DNA from: Candidatus Curtissbacteria bacterium
GTDB taxonomy: Bacteria; Patescibacteriota; Microgenomatia; Curtissbacterales; GWA2-41-24
Direction: 5' to 3'
DNA: 42,201 bases
NCBI GenBank assembly: GCA_024654445.1
Contig: JANLHP010000023.1
Span: forward strand, 1-42,201
Shown here: positions 4,281 to 32,577 of the stretch, one piece after another
Position numbering within the stretch: the first letter of the stretch is position 1
Layout: every line of letters begins with the position of its first letter
Program-made: the position numbers and the translations under genes
Notes under the pieces: generated by a model
Seen by the model: only the letters and a program-made list of their open reading frames with translations
Databases searched by the model: none
What the model was told of the DNA's origin: nothing

Positions 4281-5234
4281 TCAATTCACCTGTTTTTCTT
4301 TCGGATTGAGAAAGTAGGGTATGCCTAAAGGTTCGTCTGTTATTTCATCTGCATCCGGGAAAATTTTATTGATCGGGTTTTCATCAAAAACGTCTTTTAA
4401 GTCTTCCCCGACCAAGTGTGTATATCTGTTATGGGTTTTAAAACTTGTATGACCCACAGCCTTCATTATTTTCATAGTATCTATATTTGCTTTGTGGCTT
4501 TCTGTAATGAAACTATGCCTAAACGTGTGTAAGTGGATACTTTTGTCATATCCCAAAAGAGCCAATCTTTTTTTAAGTTCATCTCTATATTTTTGAGGGG
4601 AAGCCATAGCGCCTTCCTTCGTAGCAAAAACAAAGTCATAAGGCTTAGCGTTTCGTTCATCAAGCCAACTTCTTAGCCTTCCTCTCATTATTTTTGGAAT
4701 CCACAGTGTTCTGATTTTTCTCCCTTTACCCAAGACCCTAAAAGTATTATTCTCAAAATTCACATCCTGAACCCTCAATCGCAACGCTTCTATGCGCCTA
4801 AGTCCGCATCTACCAAGGAACTCGAAGAAAAAATCATACTCCCTTCTATCGATATAACTGTGATACTTGCTCCAAACTCTTGGGCAGTCCACGATTGCAT
4901 TTATCTGACTGACAGAGAGAAGAATAGGCGAGAAAGGTTCATCCTTCATTGATTTCAAGTACAAGAACAACTCTTCTTTAATAAGTCCTTCGTCAAAAAG
5001 GTATCTAAAAAAACACTTTAATGTGGCAATCGCGGAGTTTACTGTGGCAGGCATACGGCCTTTTTGATAATAATCGATAAACCTATCGTTATTTTTTCTC
5101 GTTATTCTTTTCCGTCTCAACCAACTGCGGTAGTATCGTAGATTATCAGCGTGCCTGCTAATAGTGAGAGGGGACAACCTAATACGTCTTTTGGCATTTA
5201 AAAATCTTTGTATTATTTCTGTTTTTAACTTCAT
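4281..5234 (-). CDS. Tyrosine recombinase / integrase 1
   Basis: A phage-type tyrosine recombinase of about 317 residues. The N-terminal SAM-like core-binding domain (about 1-95) contains LSPLTISRHADNLRYYRSWL. The catalytic domain carries the full active-site set: Arg in GRCGLRRIEAL, Lys in the beta hairpin (VLGKGRKIRTL), HTFRH, Gly-His in AVGHTS, and the nucleophile Tyr in HNRYTHL (about residue 271). I chose the ATG at 5234; a longer frame to 5264 would run through an inverted-repeat region. It is paralogous to recombinase 2 (shared YDFFFE, RNAKP and YTHLV..DLK). Its leader contains strong palindromes. Confidence 0.9.
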   Translation of the reverse strand: MKLKTEIIQRFLNAKRRIRLSPLTISRHADNLRYYRSWLRRKRITRKNNDRFIDYYQKGRMPATVNSAIATLKCFFRYLFDEGLIKEELFLYLKSMKDEPFSPILLSVSQINAIVDCPRVWSKYHSYIDRREYDFFFEFLGRCGLRRIEALRLRVQDVNFENNTFRVLGKGRKIRTLWIPKIMRGRLRSWLDERNAKPYDFVFATKEGAMASPQKYRDELKKRLALLGYDKSIHLHTFRHSFITESHKANIDTMKIMKAVGHTSFKTHNRYTHLVGEDLKDVFDENPINKIFPDADEITDEPLGIPYFLNPKEKQVN

Positions 5235-5288
5235 AATAAAAACCCTCGCCTCGGGGACAGCCAAAACGAGAGTTTTTATTTGTCCCCG
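5235..5288. promoter_or_regulatory. Interlocked inverted repeats before integrase 1
   Basis: AATAAAAACCCTCG (5235-5248) pairs with CGAGAGTTTTTATT (5267-5280), 13 of 14. The loop segment CGGGGACA (5252-5259) pairs with TGTCCCCG (5281-5288), 8 of 8. The two stems interlock, which is the geometry of an H-type pseudoknot in RNA. The element ends right at the integrase start codon, so it could control integrase translation or form part of an attachment or arm site. Confidence 0.5.
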
Positions 5289-9307: not shown

Positions 9308-10348
9308 ATGAGACTCCTTCCCGGTCAGTTTTTTTACAATATGAAATTCGCAGATACATTATTACTAACGGGTGCCGGTTATTCTGCAAACTTCGGCGGA
9401 TTCTTAGGTAGAGAGATGTGGTCTTGGATTTTTAACAATTCCAAATTAAATAATGCCGGCAGTCTAAAGAGAAGTCTCCGCAACAAATTTGACTTTGAGG
9501 CTATTTATTCAGAAGTTTTTGACGAAAGAAGTAACCTACCTTCTCACGAGACGGAAATTTTTAAGGAAGTGGTAAATGAGGCTTATCTCGCTATGGACGC
9601 TGTAATTCAAACAGGATGGGACAACCTTCCCATACATCACGCAGATGCAACTAAGTTTTTAGGTCAATTTATAGAATCGGACGGAGGTACTTGTTTCACC
9701 CTAAATCAAGACCTTGCGATGGAGAAAAGATTTGGATGGAATACTTTTGGGCCGCTAAGCATAAGATATAAGGGCAATTGGGGCAGTTTAGATCTTAATG
9801 ACCTAGATTCAACAGACAAGGTTTTACCTACGGCTGACGAAATTGATAAATACAAAACAGAAGCAGAAAACTCTAGTCGTCGGTACATTAAATTACACGG
9901 CTCTCTCAATTGGATAAGTCAGGATGGGAGTGATAGCAAGGTTATTGGAATCAATAAAATGACCACCATAACCAAAATCCCTCTTCTGAAGTGGTATTTC
10001 GACCTGTTTAAGGAAGCAATTTCTACCGGTGATAAAAGGTTGGTAATAATTGGATACGGCTTTCGAGACGACCACATAAATTCGCTCCTAGCAGAAGCCT
10101 GCGAGAAAAATAACCTCAAGTTGTATATCATTTCTCCAACCGACCCGGTTTCCTTTCAGGAAGATTTACTTTATAGAGGGCAGGGGGCTCTTAGGAGTGA
10201 AGACCCGCTTCGTTCTAAAATTTGGAACGGTGTTTATGGCTACTTTCCGTATAAATTCAGCGAATTATTTCCTAGCCCACAAATAACTTCGAATCCGAAA
10301 CTAGCAGAAATTCACCAAGCGTTATTCTCATCCTTTGCGTTAAATTGA
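9308..10348 (+). CDS. SIR2-like (SIR2_2 family) NAD-binding protein
   Basis: Near the N-terminus is the Rossmann NAD signature LLLTGAGYSANFGGFLG, followed by CFTLNQDLAMEKRF (the TxNxD equivalent), KLHGSLNW (the catalytic-type His) and VIIGYGFRDDHINSLLAEA. This order is that of bacterial SIR2-like proteins, many of which are NAD-depleting effectors of anti-phage systems. It lacks the zinc-binding cysteines of deacetylating sirtuins. The ATG at 9308 follows the yegP stop; the ATG at 9341 is an alternative closer to the first beta strand. The next gene overlaps its stop, so the two form a unit. An NADase role in defence is inference. Confidence 0.8.
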   Translation: MRLLPGQFFYNMKFADTLLLTGAGYSANFGGFLGREMWSWIFNNSKLNNAGSLKRSLRNKFDFEAIYSEVFDERSNLPSHETEIFKEVVNEAYLAMDAVIQTGWDNLPIHHADATKFLGQFIESDGGTCFTLNQDLAMEKRFGWNTFGPLSIRYKGNWGSLDLNDLDSTDKVLPTADEIDKYKTEAENSSRRYIKLHGSLNWISQDGSDSKVIGINKMTTITKIPLLKWYFDLFKEAISTGDKRLVIIGYGFRDDHINSLLAEACEKNNLKLYIISPTDPVSFQEDLLYRGQGALRSEDPLRSKIWNGVYGYFPYKFSELFPSPQITSNPKLAEIHQALFSSFALN

Positions 10349-11175
10349 TGACAAAATTCAAAAAGTATTCAGAGCAACAATTTGCGACTTATCTCGACAA
10401 TTTGGGTTTATATTGGGAATACGAACGTGATTGGGAGGGCAAAAACCCGGACTTCACAATTTATTCGGACATTTCAAAAAAGAGAATTGTTGCCATCGCC
10501 GAGATAAAGGAAATTGATCATACAAAGGGTGAAAAGGAAATCTTAAAGAAAACGAATTTCTTGTCCCGAAGCGGCCATCCCAACACTAGTGAAAGAAAGA
10601 AAATACACGAAGTAAGGGAGCAGTTCAAGGTTGTTAGAAATTATCCCTGTCTTTTAATAATTAAAGACCTTACAGCCCCTCCTAAGCCTCCAATTTTGAC
10701 CCTTGCTTCGATGCTTGGAGACCTATCTATCTCTTTTCCAGTCCGCGTTCCTGGTAAGAAGCCTGTGGGCAAAACATTTAATTTTTTCGGTAAGCAAGGA
10801 AAAATGATTGACCAAAAAGGGAATCGTAAGCAAAACACTACTATTACTGCAATAGGCTATATAGAAACTATTAAACCAGATGTAATTCGGAGTGGATTTG
10901 ACAAAATGATGCCCAAAATTATTAAAGAGATCGGTGGCGTGTCTGATGAAGCACACACAAATCTTTATTTAGAAAAAGCGCAGAAATTGGAGAATAGACT
11001 AACCAAAAAAGGATTTGATCTCGACAAGACCGCTATTGGTGTAAGTTTTACATTAAATCCTTTTCGGAAAAAAAGGTTTCCGAGATCTTTTTTTGCTAAT
11101 AAATATTCGCGTATATTTAGATATTCTCCATCTAAAAGCAGAATATTATTAGATTATGATTGGAGCAAAGTATAG
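10348..11175 (+). CDS. PD-(D/E)XK nuclease-like protein, SIR2 partner
   Basis: The ATG at 10348 overlaps the SIR2 stop by one base (TGATG). Residues 1-60 show a restriction-endonuclease-like core: helix FKKYSEQQFATYLDNLGLYWEYE with Glu25, then NPDFTIYS (Pro34-Asp35), then a strand VAIAEIKEI (Glu52-x-Lys54). The middle and C-terminal parts (to 275) are unknown, with a basic end (NPFRKKRFPRSFF). The PD...ExK spacing fits the family, but no search could be run. It may sense or cut foreign nucleic acid and license the SIR2 protein, or act as an independent effector. Confidence 0.6.
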   Translation: MTKFKKYSEQQFATYLDNLGLYWEYERDWEGKNPDFTIYSDISKKRIVAIAEIKEIDHTKGEKEILKKTNFLSRSGHPNTSERKKIHEVREQFKVVRNYPCLLIIKDLTAPPKPPILTLASMLGDLSISFPVRVPGKKPVGKTFNFFGKQGKMIDQKGNRKQNTTITAIGYIETIKPDVIRSGFDKMMPKIIKEIGGVSDEAHTNLYLEKAQKLENRLTKKGFDLDKTAIGVSFTLNPFRKKRFPRSFFANKYSRIFRYSPSKSRILLDYDWSKV

Positions 11176-11207: not shown

Positions 11208-11357
11208 ATGTCTAAAAAACAAAAACTAGCAGAGGAGGAAATTAAAAACTTCACCGAATTTATCGACCTTTTACAGGAAGAGACGGAAAGGCAAAAGCAT
11301 ATGTCCGAAAAGGAAAAAAAGGACAATGCAGTTAAGATGGGGGATATTTATTATTAA
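11208..11357 (+). CDS. Small helical protein beside integrase 2
   Basis: A 49-codon ORF, MSKKQKLAEEEIKNFTEFID followed by LLQEETERQKHMSEKEKKDNA, ends 4 bases inside the convergent integrase gene. It is highly charged and helical. Short ORFs of the EE.KNF.EF.DLL type seem common in CPR islands, but I know no function. Coding is supported by residue pattern only. Confidence 0.4.
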   Translation: MSKKQKLAEEEIKNFTEFIDLLQEETERQKHMSEKEKKDNAVKMGDIYY

Positions 11358-12370
11358 GACTCTCGAAGATGAAGGGTCTTTTGTGCTGGCTCTTTGTCTA
11401 TTTGCACAGGTTTTAAGTTTAACGGGTGGGATTCAATAACATTTTTTAAATCATCAACAACAAGGTGCGTATATTTAAGAGTTGTATTCAGGCTTGCGTG
11501 GCCTACTATTCTAGCAACTTTTAGTGCCGGGGCTTCAGCCTTTATCAACTCTGTAATGAAACAATGGCGAAGCAAGTGCAAGTGGACTCGCTTTTTAATG
11601 CCAAGAATCTTTGCTCTAGTCTTCATCTCATTGATAAAAGTGTGAGCCTCGATCCTTCTACCGTCTTTATGAAAGGACTTAAAAAGAGGCTCTTCCGGTT
11701 TTGCATTGCGGTTTTCTAGCCACTCTTGCAATCTAATTCCTAGTTCAACTGGCATTGGGATGATTCTCGGCTTATTAAATTTTGCCTCTCTAATTCTTAT
11801 TACCATTTCTTCAAAATCTAGGTCTCCGGCGTTTAAATAAACGGTTTCTGACCGTCTCATACCCGTGCAGGCGACAAGTTCAAAGAAAAAGTCGTAATAA
11901 CGCCTGTCTAGGTAATTGTGCCATCTGTCATACTCTCTTGGGCAGTCGATAATTGTTCTGATTTCCGCAATTGTTAGCAAATCAGGGAAAAAAGCCGGTA
12001 ATCTCATAGACTTTATGCAGTGCGAAATGTCGTCGTCTAAAAACCCTTCCTCAAGCCATAGCCACTTCAAAAACTGCTTCATTGAAGAGATTATGGAGTT
12101 CACAGAAGCCGTAGCAAGCCCTTTAGGTTCCCCAAGTCCGTTTGTAGACTTCGAGTCAATGTTTTTGCAATGGAGGATATAGTCGCGAACAGTGTCTTTG
12201 TTTATATGCTTGCAGTCTATAAAATCCGGGAAATGCCGCAAATTGTACCAATTTCGCTGGATTGTCTTCTCACTCATACCACGATAGCGGTAAAAATCGA
12301 AGAATCTGACCAAAAATCTATCGATTTGTGATTTTTTCGCTATTCTGCCCCTTTTTCTGCCCGATAACAT
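11354..12370 (-). CDS. Tyrosine recombinase / integrase 2
   Basis: A 338-residue phage-type integrase. The N-terminal core-binding domain spans about 15-115 (RGMSEKTIQRNWYNLRHFPDF ... SVNSIISSMKQFLKWLW). The catalytic domain contains CTGMRRSET (Arg 172), HLLRH (His265, Arg268), VGHAS (His291) and the nucleophile KYTHL (Tyr300). It resembles integrase 1 in architecture and motifs. It lies at the right edge of the island, 50 bases from the glycosyltransferase start that carries the proposed recombination core, which is the usual position for an integrase beside its attachment site. Confidence 0.9.
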   Translation of the reverse strand: MLSGRKRGRIAKKSQIDRFLVRFFDFYRYRGMSEKTIQRNWYNLRHFPDFIDCKHINKDTVRDYILHCKNIDSKSTNGLGEPKGLATASVNSIISSMKQFLKWLWLEEGFLDDDISHCIKSMRLPAFFPDLLTIAEIRTIIDCPREYDRWHNYLDRRYYDFFFELVACTGMRRSETVYLNAGDLDFEEMVIRIREAKFNKPRIIPMPVELGIRLQEWLENRNAKPEEPLFKSFHKDGRRIEAHTFINEMKTRAKILGIKKRVHLHLLRHCFITELIKAEAPALKVARIVGHASLNTTLKYTHLVVDDLKNVIESHPLNLKPVQIDKEPAQKTLHLRES

Positions 12371-26345: not shown

Positions 26346-26621
26346 ATGGATTTAATTTTTAACAGTTACACTCACTTGTCTCCGGCAACCGGTTTACTTT
26401 TTCTCCTAATTACACTTTGGTCAATGTTTTGGAAAGGAGTTGCACTTTGGCACGCTGCAAATCTCGGCCAAAAATATTGGTTTATCGCGATGCTGATTTT
26501 AAACACTCTCGGAATCTTAGAAATTATTTTCCTTTTCAAATTTGCAAAGAGAAAAATGACAGTAGCGAAACTCCGCAGTGACGTACAAAGCTTCTTCCGA
26601 AACTTATCCTCAAAAAGCTAG
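26346..26621 (+). CDS. DUF5652-like small membrane protein
   Basis: A 91-residue protein with two transmembrane helices (about 15-32 and 45-65): LFLLITLWSMFWKGVALWHAANLGQKYWFIAMLILNTLGILEIIFLFKFAKRK. The WKG.ALW.AA..GQK.WF...LI.NT.GILEI pattern is that of the DUF5652/PLDc_N-like small membrane proteins found widely in CPR bacteria. TACAAT lies 9 bases upstream of the ATG. Function is unknown; its place after ftsI suggests an envelope role. Confidence 0.7.
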   Translation: MDLIFNSYTHLSPATGLLFLLITLWSMFWKGVALWHAANLGQKYWFIAMLILNTLGILEIIFLFKFAKRKMTVAKLRSDVQSFFRNLSSKS

Positions 26622-27096: not shown

Positions 27097-28287
27097 ATGT
27101 GGCAAAAAATTAAAAACATTTACCACCTACTTCAAGCATTTACAGCTGCGGTTTTTTTTAGATTCCCTTCCAAAGATTTAGTAATAATTGGTGTAACGGG
27201 AACCGACGGAAAAACAACAACCGTCAATATGATTTACCATATCCTCAAAGAAGATGGCAAGAGAGTTTCTATGGTCTCTTCAGTTGGCGCAAAAATCGGA
27301 AGTAGTGATACCGACACAGGTTTCCATGTATCAACACCGTCTTCTTGGAATGTTCAAAGGTTAATCAACAACGCCAAGTCCGCCGGCAGTGAATTTTTCG
27401 TTATGGAAGCAACGTCTCATGGGCTGGACCAAAACCGGCTTGCCTTTGTTAACTTTACCGTTGCTGTTTTAACAAACATCACAAGCGAACACATGGACTA
27501 CCACAAGAACTTTCCAAATTACGTGAGCGCAAAGTCGAAACTTTTTAAAAATGTAAAATTTTCCGTCCTCAACGTGGACGATAAATCGTACAATGCCGTC
27601 AAAAAAAACGCGGACGGCAAAGTGATTTCCTATTCTCTTAAAAACAAAGGTGACTACAATTTAAAAAACTTACCGCTAAGCCTTACTGTCCCTGGCGACT
27701 ACAACCTGCACAACGCGCTTGCTGCGTCGTCTGCTTGCATCGCGCTCGGTCTATCAAAGCAGCAGGTTACCAAAAGTCTTAAAACATTCGCTGGCGTGAC
27801 CGGAAGGATGCAAGAGGTAAAACTTGGACAAGACTTCAAAGTCTTTATCGACTTTGCCCATACGCCGAATTCGCTAGGGAAAGTCTTAACTCACCTTAAT
27901 TCGACTAAGAGCCAAGGAGAAAAACTCGTCGCTGTTTTTGGCGCGGCAGGTCAAAGAGATAGAACGAAACGAAAGACTATGGGGGAAGTTGCGGACAAGA
28001 TCGCCGATGTCATAGTTCTGACATCAGAAGATCCAAGAGATGAAGATCCCGAAGAAATTGCCAAAGAGATTGCCGCTGGAATTAAAAATAAAAAAATGGG
28101 CAAAGATTTATTTATTGTTAAAGACAGAAAAGAAGCAATCGAGAAAGCCGTTGACCTTGTAAAACCCGGAGACATTATTGGGATATTTGGCAAAGGCCAC
28201 GAAAAGAGTTTCAGTGTTGGAGGCCACGAACTCCCTTGGGACGACGTTGAAATTGCAAGTGAAATAATAAAAAGGAAAATTAAATGA
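27097..28287 (+). CDS. murE: MurE-like Mur ligase, N-terminally trimmed
   Basis: Adds the third stem-peptide residue to UDP-MurNAc-L-Ala-D-Glu. The P-loop GVTGTDGKTTT starts at residue 32, then MEATSHGLDQNRLAFVNFTVAVLTNITSEHMDYH, DFAHTPNSL, FGAAGQRDRTKR, and EDPRDEDP at 311-318. That last motif replaces the DNPR of diaminopimelate-type MurE but keeps the Arg that reads the DAP carboxylate, so meso-DAP is the likely substrate (inference). At 396 residues it lacks about 90 residues of the N-terminal UDP-binding domain. It shares an ATGA overlap with the next gene. Confidence 0.85.
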   Translation: MWQKIKNIYHLLQAFTAAVFFRFPSKDLVIIGVTGTDGKTTTVNMIYHILKEDGKRVSMVSSVGAKIGSSDTDTGFHVSTPSSWNVQRLINNAKSAGSEFFVMEATSHGLDQNRLAFVNFTVAVLTNITSEHMDYHKNFPNYVSAKSKLFKNVKFSVLNVDDKSYNAVKKNADGKVISYSLKNKGDYNLKNLPLSLTVPGDYNLHNALAASSACIALGLSKQQVTKSLKTFAGVTGRMQEVKLGQDFKVFIDFAHTPNSLGKVLTHLNSTKSQGEKLVAVFGAAGQRDRTKRKTMGEVADKIADVIVLTSEDPRDEDPEEIAKEIAAGIKNKKMGKDLFIVKDRKEAIEKAVDLVKPGDIIGIFGKGHEKSFSVGGHELPWDDVEIASEIIKRKIK

Positions 28288-30269
28288 AAAACTTTGCGGT
28301 TATAATTCTGGCAGCAGGTCTTGGCAAAAGGATGAAATCCGAAACACCCAAGGTTTTGCATAAAGTCGGAGAAAAGCCAATCATCATAAGAAGTCTAGAG
28401 GTGGTCGAAGCAATAGCTCCAGAGGAAATTATCGTTGTCACTAGCCCCACAAATAACGAACTTATTAAAAGCGAAGTAGGACAGTCTTCTTTACTTGCCG
28501 TGCAGCAATCACCAAAAGGTACCGCAGACGCAGCAGCCGCCGGGCTGAAAGAGACGAGAGAGGGTATAGAAAACGTGGTTATCTTGTATGGAGACGACAC
28601 CGCATTTTACAGACCAGCAACAATTACAGAAGTAATAAAAGATCACGAAGAAAACAAAAATGACATCACATTCGTCACCTTAGACAGCGAAAAGCCGACA
28701 GGTCTTGGACGGATTGTCAGAGAAGGCGGCAAGGTGAAAACGATAGTCGAAGAAAAAGACGCGACAGAAGCAGAGAAAAAAATCACCGAAATAAACGACG
28801 GCATTTACGTTTTTAACAGAGATTGGATCCAAGAAAACATTGGAAAACTCGAGCCTTCAGGCGCAACAGGCGAACTTTACATTACCGACTTAATAAGTAT
28901 GGCGCTTTCCCAAAACAAAAAAGTTGACGCTTATAAGCTCGATGATCAGTCGCAGTGGCACGGAATAAATACTCCGGAAGAATTGGAAGCAGCGGCAAAT
29001 AAAAATCAACTTAAAATCCATATTATGGGAGCAGCGGGAGCCGGTGCCGCGGCAGTCGCCGGTATCGCGGCGGAAAACGGCTTCGATGTTTCTGGTTGCG
29101 ATTTAAATCCGGATTCTGCATACACTCAAAACCTCAAAGTAAAAATAGAAAAAGGCCACAGCCCGGAGCACCTTAAAGATATCGGGATTCTTATCACTTC
29201 CCCGGCGGTGGAAAAATTAGACCCCGACAACGAAGAAATTAAAGCGGCGCGCGAGCAAAATATTCCGGTTATGAGTTGGCAAGAGTTTCAAGGAAAATAT
29301 TTGCAGAGAGGGAAGTTCGTTATAACTGTCGCTGGCGCCTATGGCAAATCTACAACAACCGCGATGATTGCCAAAATCCTAACAGACGCGGGAGTTGACC
29401 CGACCGTCGAAATCGGCGCCAAGGTAATTGAGTGGGGAGCAAACTTCAGAGTGGGTAAGTCCAAGTACTACGTCTGCGAATCCGATGAATATAACAATAA
29501 CTTCTTACACTACAAACCGGATATCGCCGTCATTTTAAATCTTAACTGGGACCATCCAGATTTCTTCAAATCTAAGGGTGATGTTGTATCTGCTTATCAA
29601 AAATTCGTGTCACAAATAAAAATCGGCGGGCGCTTAATTACATCCAACGAAACGTTATTTAAGGATCTTGTTCCCTACACATCTGCACGTACAGAGGAAG
29701 TAACAGATTTTGGGGATCTAAACCTTTCTATAATTGGAGATTTTAGAAAGGAGAATGCGAACGCGGCACTTACCGTTGCGGAGATTCTCGGTCTAAACAT
29801 TACCCAAGCAGTTAAGTCAGTAGAAAGTTTTAAAGGACTTGGAAGAAGACTTGAAGAAAAGGGTAGAGTCGGAAACGCAATTGTTTACGATGATTATGCC
29901 GTCCAGCCTTACACAATTAAATCGACCGCCGACGCGCTGGCCGACAAATATCCGGATAAAAAAGTAACTTTGGTCTTGGAACCTCATACCTTTTCGAGAA
30001 TTAACACTTTCTTTGAGGACTTTGTAAAAAGTTTAAAAGAATCAAAGGTCCACGAAATCCTAATTACCGAAGTTTATGCCGCGAGGGAAAAAGGTGATAA
30101 AATAGTTCTTTCAAAGAAGCTCGCAGAGGCTGTCGGCACAAAAGCGAAGTTTACTGGCTCTGTGGAAGAAACTGCCCTATATATAAAGAAGGATATTAAT
30201 ACTTACGACGTCATTCTTTCCATGGGAGCGGGTAACTCGTATATGCTTTACGATTTGCTTAAATCCTAA
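28284..30269 (+). CDS. murC: Fusion: GlmU-type uridylyltransferase and MurC ligase
   Basis: Two enzymes in one 661-residue chain. Residues 1 to about 240 are a GlmU N-domain: ILAAGLGKRMKSETPKVLHKVGEKP, GTADAAAAGL, LYGDDTAF (Asp104), GLGRIVREGGKVKTIVEEKDAT and INDGIYVFN. It would make UDP-GlcNAc from GlcNAc-1-P; the acetyltransferase left-handed helix of GlmU is absent. Residues from about 243 are MurC: IHIMGAAGAGAAAVAGIA, a P-loop GAYGKSTTT at 351-359 (usual GTHGKTTT), ESDEYNNNFLHYKP, NLNWDHPD, and LEPHTFSRI. It adds L-Ala to UDP-MurNAc. The first and fourth steps of the route thus share one protein. There is no frameshift or internal start that would split it. Confidence 0.88.
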   Translation: MKNFAVIILAAGLGKRMKSETPKVLHKVGEKPIIIRSLEVVEAIAPEEIIVVTSPTNNELIKSEVGQSSLLAVQQSPKGTADAAAAGLKETREGIENVVILYGDDTAFYRPATITEVIKDHEENKNDITFVTLDSEKPTGLGRIVREGGKVKTIVEEKDATEAEKKITEINDGIYVFNRDWIQENIGKLEPSGATGELYITDLISMALSQNKKVDAYKLDDQSQWHGINTPEELEAAANKNQLKIHIMGAAGAGAAAVAGIAAENGFDVSGCDLNPDSAYTQNLKVKIEKGHSPEHLKDIGILITSPAVEKLDPDNEEIKAAREQNIPVMSWQEFQGKYLQRGKFVITVAGAYGKSTTTAMIAKILTDAGVDPTVEIGAKVIEWGANFRVGKSKYYVCESDEYNNNFLHYKPDIAVILNLNWDHPDFFKSKGDVVSAYQKFVSQIKIGGRLITSNETLFKDLVPYTSARTEEVTDFGDLNLSIIGDFRKENANAALTVAEILGLNITQAVKSVESFKGLGRRLEEKGRVGNAIVYDDYAVQPYTIKSTADALADKYPDKKVTLVLEPHTFSRINTFFEDFVKSLKESKVHEILITEVYAAREKGDKIVLSKKLAEAVGTKAKFTGSVEETALYIKKDINTYDVILSMGAGNSYMLYDLLKS

Positions 30270-30326: not shown

Positions 30327-31331
30327 ATGGATAACGTCACTAAATTAAAAGAAATTCTTGGGCCGTTAAGGGTTCGCGAAAACGAGCCTCTTTCTCAGCA
30401 CACATACTTCAAAATCGGGGGGCCCGCAAGGTTATTTTTCGAAGCAACCAACGTCGAAGACTTAAAACTCGCCCTAACTACAGCTTTCGATCTCAAGATC
30501 CCATATGTTGTTCTCGGCGGTGGCGCGAATGTTCTCGTTTCCGATAAAGGTTTTGACGGCCTCGTCATCAAGAACAGGGCGCAAGGAGTAAAACTAGTTG
30601 ATATCAAAGGGACAATAGGCAAAAACGGCACCGGCGTAAAAAGCGCGAACATTTGGGCAATTTCTGGGACTTTGATGAACCAACTTGCCCGCTTTAGCAT
30701 CGATCAAGGCCTAGAGGGGATTGAGTATTTGCTTTCTGTTCCGGGAACTGTCGGAGGAGGCTTAAAAATTAATGCCCACTACGAAGTTGAAAAGGGAGAA
30801 TTTGTTGGCGACAAACTAGTTTCAGCGGCAGTCTTCGATCCAAAAACGGGAGAGGTCATAACTCGCGAAAAAGATTATTTTGAATTTTCGTATGATCACT
30901 CGAAAATTCAAGAAACGGGAGAAATTGTGCTCGAGGCGATATTCCAGCTCGAAAGGTCACAAGATCCTCAAGGCTTGTGGCAAAGAGCTATGGACAACGT
31001 AAAACGCAGAAACGAAGAGCAGCCGGTGGGAATTGCTTGTTCCGGGTGTATTTTTAGAAACATTGCAAACGAAGACGCGATGCGGCTCGCGACGCCAAAT
31101 TTGACTACATCAACAGGCTATATTATCGACAGCCTTGGCCTCAAAGGAACAAAAGTCGGTGGCGCAGAAGTCTCCCAGCACCACGCCAACTTCATACTAA
31201 ATACGAACCAAGCAACGGCAGCTGACGTGCTAGAATTAATTAAGCTCATAAAAACAAAAGCCAAAGAAACTTTAGGCCTAGATTTAAAAGAAGAAATATT
31301 TTTAATTGGAGATTTGACAAATGAAGTTTGA
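30327..31331 (+). CDS. murB: UDP-N-acetylenolpyruvoylglucosamine reductase
   Basis: An FAD enzyme that reduces enolpyruvyl-UDP-GlcNAc to UDP-MurNAc. FAD-binding part: HTYFKIGGPARLFFEATNVEDL and VVLGGGANVLVSDKGFDGLVI, then SVPGTVGGGLKINAHYEVEKGEF. Substrate part: NVKRRNEEQPVGIACSGCIFRNI, where a Cys occupies the general-acid position that is Ser in E. coli MurB, and LGLKGTKVGGAEVSQHHANFILN. The C-terminal Glu region is present. At 334 residues it is of type II size. Its end overlaps murA by 11 bases. Confidence 0.92.
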   Translation: MDNVTKLKEILGPLRVRENEPLSQHTYFKIGGPARLFFEATNVEDLKLALTTAFDLKIPYVVLGGGANVLVSDKGFDGLVIKNRAQGVKLVDIKGTIGKNGTGVKSANIWAISGTLMNQLARFSIDQGLEGIEYLLSVPGTVGGGLKINAHYEVEKGEFVGDKLVSAAVFDPKTGEVITREKDYFEFSYDHSKIQETGEIVLEAIFQLERSQDPQGLWQRAMDNVKRRNEEQPVGIACSGCIFRNIANEDAMRLATPNLTTSTGYIIDSLGLKGTKVGGAEVSQHHANFILNTNQATAADVLELIKLIKTKAKETLGLDLKEEIFLIGDLTNEV

Positions 31332-32577
31332 AATCGAGGGAGGCCATAAGCTTTCCGGAAAAATAAAAATAGCAGGCAACAAAAATTCGGTCTTGCCGAT
31401 TATGACGGCGTGTCTCATGACCGAAGAAGAATGTGTCCTTGAAAACGTTCCAGAAATTTCCGATGTTAATGTTATGGCTCAACTTATGGAATTGGCTGGC
31501 GCCAAAATAGAAGGCGTCGGGACCTCAAGGCTCACAATTAGCTGCAAGAACATTAAACCAACAAGTTTTCCGATGGAACTCACAGAAAAACTCAGAGCAG
31601 CGGCACTACTTCTTGGGCCAATGCTTGCAAGGGTCGGCGAGGTTACCCTGGGTTACCCTGGTGGTGACATCATAGGGAGGCGTTCCCTGGACACCCATAT
31701 ACAAGCGCTCGAAGAAATGGGCGCTCGAATTGAAAAGAAAGATGACTCTTACGTCGCAAGCTCCAAAGAACTCAAAGGCCGAGAGATCTTCTTAAGCGAA
31801 GCGTCTGTAACCGCGACAGAAAACGCGATTATGGCAGCGGTTACAGCAAGCGGCGAAACCAAAATTAAAAGGGCAGCATCTGAACCCCACGTTGTTGACC
31901 TTTGCGAGTTCTTAATAAAAATGGGCGCGGAAATCACAGGAGTTGGTTCAAACGTTCTAATAATACGGGGAACAAAAAACCTCAGCGGTGCTACTCACAG
32001 CATTCGACCGGATCATATCGAAGTAGGTACTTTTGCGATTCTTGGCGCGGTAACAAAAGGAACCTTAGAAATGTCGCCAATCATAAAAGAAGACATCGAC
32101 ATGATTCTTCTGACACTCGACAGTTTTGGCGTTGATTACAAAATAGAAGAAGACATCATGACCGTCAAAGAATCAAAGCTTGTTGCTCCGCAAAAAGTAG
32201 TAACCGACGTTTGGCCAGGCTTCCCGACAGACCTCATGGCCCCGACCATCGTGCTCGCGACACAATCCGAAGGTGTAACGCTTCTTCACGATTGGATGTA
32301 CGAATCGCGTATGTTTTTTGTAGACAAACTTCTTTCGATGGGAGCAAAAGTAGAAATTGCGGATCCTCACAGGGTCCTTGTTTATGGGCCGACAAAACTC
32401 AGCGCTCAACGCCTCGACACTCCAGATATTCGAGCAGGCGTCGCTTTAGTAATTGCAGCCCTCGCGGCGGATGGTAAAAGCGAGATTTACAGAGCGGAAC
32501 TAATAGAGCGAGGTTACGAAAATATTACAGAGCGGCTTTCCGCGATTGGCGCCAAAATAAAACGCTCCACCGAGTAA
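31321..32577 (+). CDS. murA: UDP-GlcNAc 1-carboxyvinyltransferase with Asp active site
   Basis: Transfers enolpyruvate from PEP to UDP-GlcNAc, the committed step of murein synthesis. It is complete at 418 residues with AGNKNSVLPIMTACLM (catalytic Lys-Asn at 21-22), LRAAALLLGPMLAR, ASVTATENAIMAAV, RPDHIEVGTFAI and WPGFPTDLMAP. The active-site loop reads GYPGGDIIGRRSLDTH: Asp116 replaces the usual Cys115 (E. coli numbering). The same Asp is known from mycobacterial, chlamydial and Borrelia MurA and makes the enzyme insensitive to fosfomycin. The start overlaps murB. Confidence 0.95.
   Translation: MKFEIEGGHKLSGKIKIAGNKNSVLPIMTACLMTEEECVLENVPEISDVNVMAQLMELAGAKIEGVGTSRLTISCKNIKPTSFPMELTEKLRAAALLLGPMLARVGEVTLGYPGGDIIGRRSLDTHIQALEEMGARIEKKDDSYVASSKELKGREIFLSEASVTATENAIMAAVTASGETKIKRAASEPHVVDLCEFLIKMGAEITGVGSNVLIIRGTKNLSGATHSIRPDHIEVGTFAILGAVTKGTLEMSPIIKEDIDMILLTLDSFGVDYKIEEDIMTVKESKLVAPQKVVTDVWPGFPTDLMAPTIVLATQSEGVTLLHDWMYESRMFFVDKLLSMGAKVEIADPHRVLVYGPTKLSAQRLDTPDIRAGVALVIAALAADGKSEIYRAELIERGYENITERLSAIGAKIKRSTE

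Follow-up and report, generated by a model that had tools for sequence, protein, structure and literature searches.

A single uninterrupted reading frame in the peptidoglycan gene cluster of a Candidatus Curtissbacteria bacterium joins the uridylyltransferase part of GlmU (GlmU-N) to MurC, both of them essential for making the wall, and, judged from sequence comparison, this pairing is real and conserved. We consider it probable that the gene encodes a bifunctional enzyme that would keep the GlmU-N and MurC reactions in a fixed ratio and place, and that it goes back to one ancestral fusion in Curtissbacteria. The N-terminal half would convert GlcNAc-1-phosphate and UTP to UDP-GlcNAc and thereby catalyse the opening, nucleotide-sugar step of the pathway. 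The C-terminal half would be the cell's MurC, attaching to UDP-MurNAc an amino acid that is probably L-Ala. The likely effect would be the 1:1 production and co-localisation of pathway entry and first ligase, beside murB and murA. We infer both activities, the single translated product and any benefit, and what the fusion gains the cell is a guess on our part.

The window, by which we mean the whole 42,201-nucleotide stretch analysed, corresponds to contig 23 in a MAG of 1.04 Mb with a completeness of 96.7%. The fused gene lies on the plus strand and runs from an ATG at 28284 to a stop ending at 30269 (28284..30269), encoding 661 amino acids according to its translation and profile matches. 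At the base composition found here, a stop-free run of this length would arise by chance with a probability of about 4e-19. The stop codon of murE (27097..28287, plus strand) overlaps the start of the fusion by 4 bp (ATGA), and murB (30327..31331, plus strand) and murA (31321..32577, plus strand) follow, succeeded by ddl, alr, murF, mraY, murD, ftsW, murG, ftsQ and ftsA. The mur/fts cluster in the window is complete, several of its gene names being sequence similarities judged by eye. The initial annotation had described one unbroken 661-codon frame, made up of a GlmU N-domain with no acetyltransferase domain and a full MurC, with murB and murA next in line, and each of these points was borne out. 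A small DUF5652 protein (26346-26621) sits between ftsI and murE.

Profile searches placed the two halves end to end. Residues 5-245 match the GlmU model TIGR01173 (201.7 bits, E 1.9e-59, profile positions 2-240 of 452), and residues 244-660 match the MurC model TIGR01082 (313.7 bits, E 2.4e-93), the latter score lying below the curated NCBIfam cut-off of 335.1; Pfam and PDB sequences agree with NCBIfam on both halves. An AlphaFold2 model (m54a0449e828a), built from six sequences, reached a mean pLDDT of 85 and a pTM of 0.66, which leaves the arrangement of the two halves towards each other uncertain. In a Foldseek search this single model matched both MurC (1p3d, HiMurC, the best match, E 3.5e-31) and GlmU (3spt, E 4.1e-22). 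At the junction, the model and an alignment of relatives place a helix (residues 231-243, 28974..29012, plus strand) that runs straight into the first MurC strand (residues 244-248) without a linker. A missed stop or frameshift between residues 235 and 250 had been named as a possible flaw, but the junction is open in 11 other genomes with intact fusions and also lies inside contig pieces of two further genomes of the family, and we thus exclude a sequencing or assembly error. In the junction alignment, 8 of 11 relatives have no in-frame ATG, GTG or TTG among the 25 codons that precede MurC. This speaks against an internal start that would yield a separate MurC, and one polypeptide is the likely product.

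We then looked at the distribution of the fusion in the family of the window (f1; 15 genomes), which comprises Candidatus Curtissbacteria, tiny uncultured bacteria to which the named relatives at 54-59% identity belong. GlmU-N::MurC is present in 14 of the 15 genomes. In 12, the window included, it occupies one intact frame at 51-59% identity; in G009 and G012 it is broken by contig ends only, with pieces that cross the junction. None of the 14 has split the pair again, and the f1 fusion is monophyletic in both trees (100/98 for GlmU-N, 100/100 for MurC). No second GlmU-N or second MurC was found elsewhere in the MAG of the window. An N-terminal fusion on MurC is in fact found in all 15 genomes, G013 alone having a different N-terminal part: its MurC, which nests inside the f1 clade, carries an RmlA/archaeal-GlmU-like nucleotidyltransferase (~240 aa) and a HAD hydrolase (~190 aa) instead of GlmU-N. 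This protein is spread over two pieces (L059:1-1868, contig 82, and L114:3-1007) whose overlapping MurC parts read identically, and which probably represent one gene of about 866 aa. No other GlmU-N was found in G013, and the combination of nucleotidyltransferase, HAD hydrolase and MurC was not seen elsewhere in 351 genomes of the class.

The GlmU-type uridylyltransferase domain (residues 1-245, 28284..29018, plus strand) was delimited by TIGR01173, by alignment to E. coli GlmU and by PDB fold matches. It carries the LxxGxGxRM...K signature as LAAGLGKRM at residues 9-17 plus K23. In E. coli numbering, R18, K25, Q76, G81, T82, Y103 and G104 are kept, as are D105, N227, G140, E154, N169, Y197 and T199, which we take to be the Mg2+ and sugar-site residues. 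The claim that all motifs of the N-domain are present thus holds for the catalytic residues; relative to E. coli, two positions differ (H84 to D and T170 to D), both changes being common in relatives. The match ends at residue 245, and the C-terminal left-handed beta-helix (LbH) acetyltransferase half is absent from the fusion. Within f1, three relatives carry S or D in place of N227, and two have V instead of T199 (G006, G007, G008 and G010 being the members concerned). These substitutions count against our main reading and, along with the replacement of this part in G013, could mean that the GlmU half is an inactive remnant or scaffold, with UDP-GlcNAc supplied by another nucleotidyltransferase. 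We regard this as very unlikely, given that the window protein and most relatives retain all the catalytic residues listed, and that the genome's remaining nucleotidyltransferases resemble, mostly by eye from sequence, the RmlA, GalU, HddC-GmhB, CDP-glucose, CMP-sugar and mannose-1-P types. Identities within f1 (59% for MurC, 48% for GlmU-N) are like those in family f3, most of whose members are unfused (57% and 46%), and the GlmU half is thus not decaying unusually fast, which rules out a loss of selection on it.

The identification of the N-domain as GlmU, on which the initial annotation rested, is well founded, with GlmU models scoring far above RmlA-type and other sugar nucleotidyltransferase models. 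We nevertheless considered that the domain might act like MurU on MurNAc-1-phosphate, which would render the two halves consecutive steps of a salvage route, and the nucleotidyltransferase and HAD hydrolase of G013 do recall MurU and MupP. This appears exceedingly unlikely, as the best score is that to GlmU, the GlcNAc-site residues G140, E154 and N169 are kept, AnmK was found in none of the 15 f1 genomes, and murA and murB are present; moreover, UDP-GlcNAc is required and GlmU-N is the only candidate domain of its kind that was found. The profile matches of the fusion protein included no MurU-specific model, and a mycobacterial recycling preprint that mentions both GlmU and MurU shows no MurU activity of GlmU (PMC13041923). 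A broader version, in which the fused nucleotidyltransferase would feed MurC locally, possibly with UDP-MurNAc from salvaged MurNAc-1-P, and in which the G013 protein would be the fuller salvage form, we judge highly unlikely; if true, it would let a reduced-genome bacterium build its wall from scavenged sugars.

The initial annotation had asked for a separate acetyltransferase and another GlmU; neither was found in the MAG, and the acetyltransferase does exist in the family. Stand-alone GlmU C-terminal (LbH) acetyltransferases of ~200 aa, located away from the mur cluster, are encoded in 3 of the 15 f1 genomes, G002, G009 and G011 (L162:1836-2450, L163:4251-4840 and L164:5688-6296), and were not found in the other 12, the window MAG included. 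GlmU is thus split in Curtissbacteria, and its two halves sit in separate places; the acetyltransferase half would already have been separated before the fusion. Elsewhere in the class, other families encode a 420-aa protein that combines a nucleotidyltransferase with LbH and lies within or close to the mur cluster. GlmS scored over its cut-off in 10 of the 15 f1 genomes, and de novo amino-sugar synthesis is thus not missing from the family as a whole. In the window MAG itself no GlmS was found, which, like the lack of GlmU-C there, bears on the supply of GlcNAc-1-P and is a point against the bifunctional reading. The PurF-like glutamine amidotransferase match of most relatives is also missing from this MAG, and a gap in the MAG is therefore possible.

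The MurC half (residues 244-660, 29013..30263, plus strand) comprises all three domains, as indicated by TIGR01082, the Pfam families Mur_ligase, Mur_ligase_M and Mur_ligase_C, and the fold match to 1p3d. Of seven residues that we take to be invariant in Mur ligases (K130, E174, H199, N293, N296, R327 and D351, E. coli numbering), six are kept, as is the PH..SR motif, while every f1 genome has R in place of N293. The P-loop reads GAYGKSTTT at residues 351-359 (29334..29360, plus strand) instead of GTHGKTTT, as originally noted, and the translations extend this divergence to the whole family (GTHGK to GAYGK, that is H128Y/W, with small variants). In the alignment, residues 536-542 (29889..29909, plus strand) read DDYAVQP where E. 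coli MurC has DDYGHHP, a change of H354 and H355 to VQ that is also f1-wide, the second position varying. The loss of N293, H354 and H355 and the score under the NCBIfam cut-off likewise weigh against our main reading. The f1-wide substitutions, that in the P-loop included, could point to a shifted specificity (e.g., Ser or Gly for L-Ala) or to altered nucleotide binding, which would be compatible with a bifunctional enzyme. His348 of Haemophilus influenzae MurC, equivalent by motif to E. coli H354, is one of those presumed to interact with the amino acid being added (PMC3060825). On balance such a shift seems unlikely, given the residues that are kept, and a MurC from Shapirobacteria (L031) also has V at the H354 site, so this may be tolerated drift. 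An independent GlmU-N::MurC fusion in f3, described below, keeps GTHGK and has none of the f1 changes; the odd P-loop is thus specific to f1 and not a consequence of fusion.

To place the fusion in a wider context, we compared the arrangement of these genes across the class. In unfused relatives, murE, glmU-N and murC are adjacent, overlapping by 4 bp or separated by a small gap (G022, G129, G040, G137 and G347), and glmU-N and murC are unfused, often overlapping neighbours in f3, f9 and f30. The same domain order, sought at the suggestion of the initial annotation, was found in f1 and in one f3 genus (g274; G364 and G373), whose fusions nest inside unfused f3 in the trees, and sequence relationships thus indicate that GlmU-N::MurC has arisen at least twice. 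No further such fusion was found in the phylum among the matches listed, in a sample of 380 genomes. Families f17 and f13 have this GlmU-N joined to the C-terminus of MurE, with MurC mostly next or close (L061 1757-3784, and further loci L062, L063, L064, L065, L066, L067, L068, L069, L085 and L086). Several f17 genomes encode MurC::MurB (L062 1583-3847, L063 2397-4532, L065 5334-7526 and L086 1919-4054), and G301 encodes an 881-aa MurC::MurD (L070 3449-6094). Since relatives keep murE, glmU-N and murC adjacent or overlapping, read-through along a conserved gene order appears to account for the fusions. In Curtissbacteria this would have happened once, in the ancestor, by loss of the stop between overlapping glmU-N and murC. 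HAD hydrolase genes were also seen next to genes for GlmU-N or a nucleotidyltransferase, within or close to the mur clusters of two other families, f18 and f17 (L090:3267-3938 and L161:2974-3408).

These observations lend strength to a rival explanation in which the fusion is neutral: a stop was lost between overlapping neighbours, the halves work independently, and nothing was gained. GlmU-N has apparently been fused at least three times to whichever gene was its neighbour (MurC in f1 and in g274, MurE in f17 and f13), and the MurC::MurB and MurC::MurD proteins show that the class joins mur genes readily. On the other side, the pair has never been split again in the 14 f1 genomes at 51-59% identity, and the replacement nucleotidyltransferase of G013 is still joined to MurC, hinting that the linkage itself has been kept. 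The swap in G013 is, from its sequence, the best hint that a sugar nucleotidyltransferase on MurC matters. We regard a neutral fusion as a strong rival and a real possibility, if a somewhat doubtful one.

The bifunctional reading leaves the question of how the two activities would be connected, for which channeling or dosage matching had been suggested. Dosage matching is plausible, with only this GlmU-N and only this MurC found in the genome and one polypeptide the likely product. Channeling is without support, the two steps being separated by MurA and MurB, both unfused. Direct channelling would need MurA and MurB docked to the fusion so that intermediates derived from UDP-GlcNAc pass to MurC; the position of murB and murA immediately 3' of the fusion, in an order kept in relatives, would suit this, but two unfused enzymes intervene and MurG also needs UDP-GlcNAc, and we hold it to be quite improbable. 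That GlmU-N is joined to MurE elsewhere points to neighbour read-through or co-localisation and not to a hand-over to MurC.

A GlmU-MurC or MurE-GlmU fusion, or work on Curtissbacteria peptidoglycan, was not found in the open-access literature, subscription papers and database annotations being outside the scope of the search. GlmU (UDP-GlcNAc diphosphorylase/GlcN-1-P acetyltransferase) shares the N-terminal uridylyltransferase fold and catalytic residues with the fusion, which has MurC where GlmU has its C-terminal left-handed beta-helix acetyltransferase. The MurB/MurC fusion of Verrucomicrobium spinosum, which complements mutants of E. coli in murB and in murC, is similarly a lineage-restricted single reading frame combining MurC with another Mur-pathway enzyme, but its partner, at the C-terminal end, catalyses the step directly before MurC (PMC4803751). 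MurC-Ddl of Chlamydia trachomatis is a bifunctional MurC protein for non-consecutive steps, but with Ddl at the C-terminus and without a nucleotidyltransferase (cited in PMC4803751). In Bordetella, MurE-MurF also unites two Mur enzymes in one polypeptide, but these are successive ligases connected by a linker of ~20 residues, without a sugar-nucleotide enzyme (PMC6420597). GlmU-N::MurC extends the few known fusions of cell-wall enzymes by an apparently unreported partner pair, in which sugar activation is combined with the first Mur ligase. The natural series of unfused, twice MurC-fused, MurE-fused and GlmU-swapped forms allows a direct test of whether Mur-pathway fusions are functional or reflect read-through of a fixed gene order.

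Elsewhere in the window, a SIR2-like protein (9308-11175; PF13289 and PADLOC SIR2 models) overlaps a 276-aa ORF without a family match. The two are flanked by two phage-type integrases (4281-5264 and 11354-12370), and this stretch is a possible defence or mobile island.
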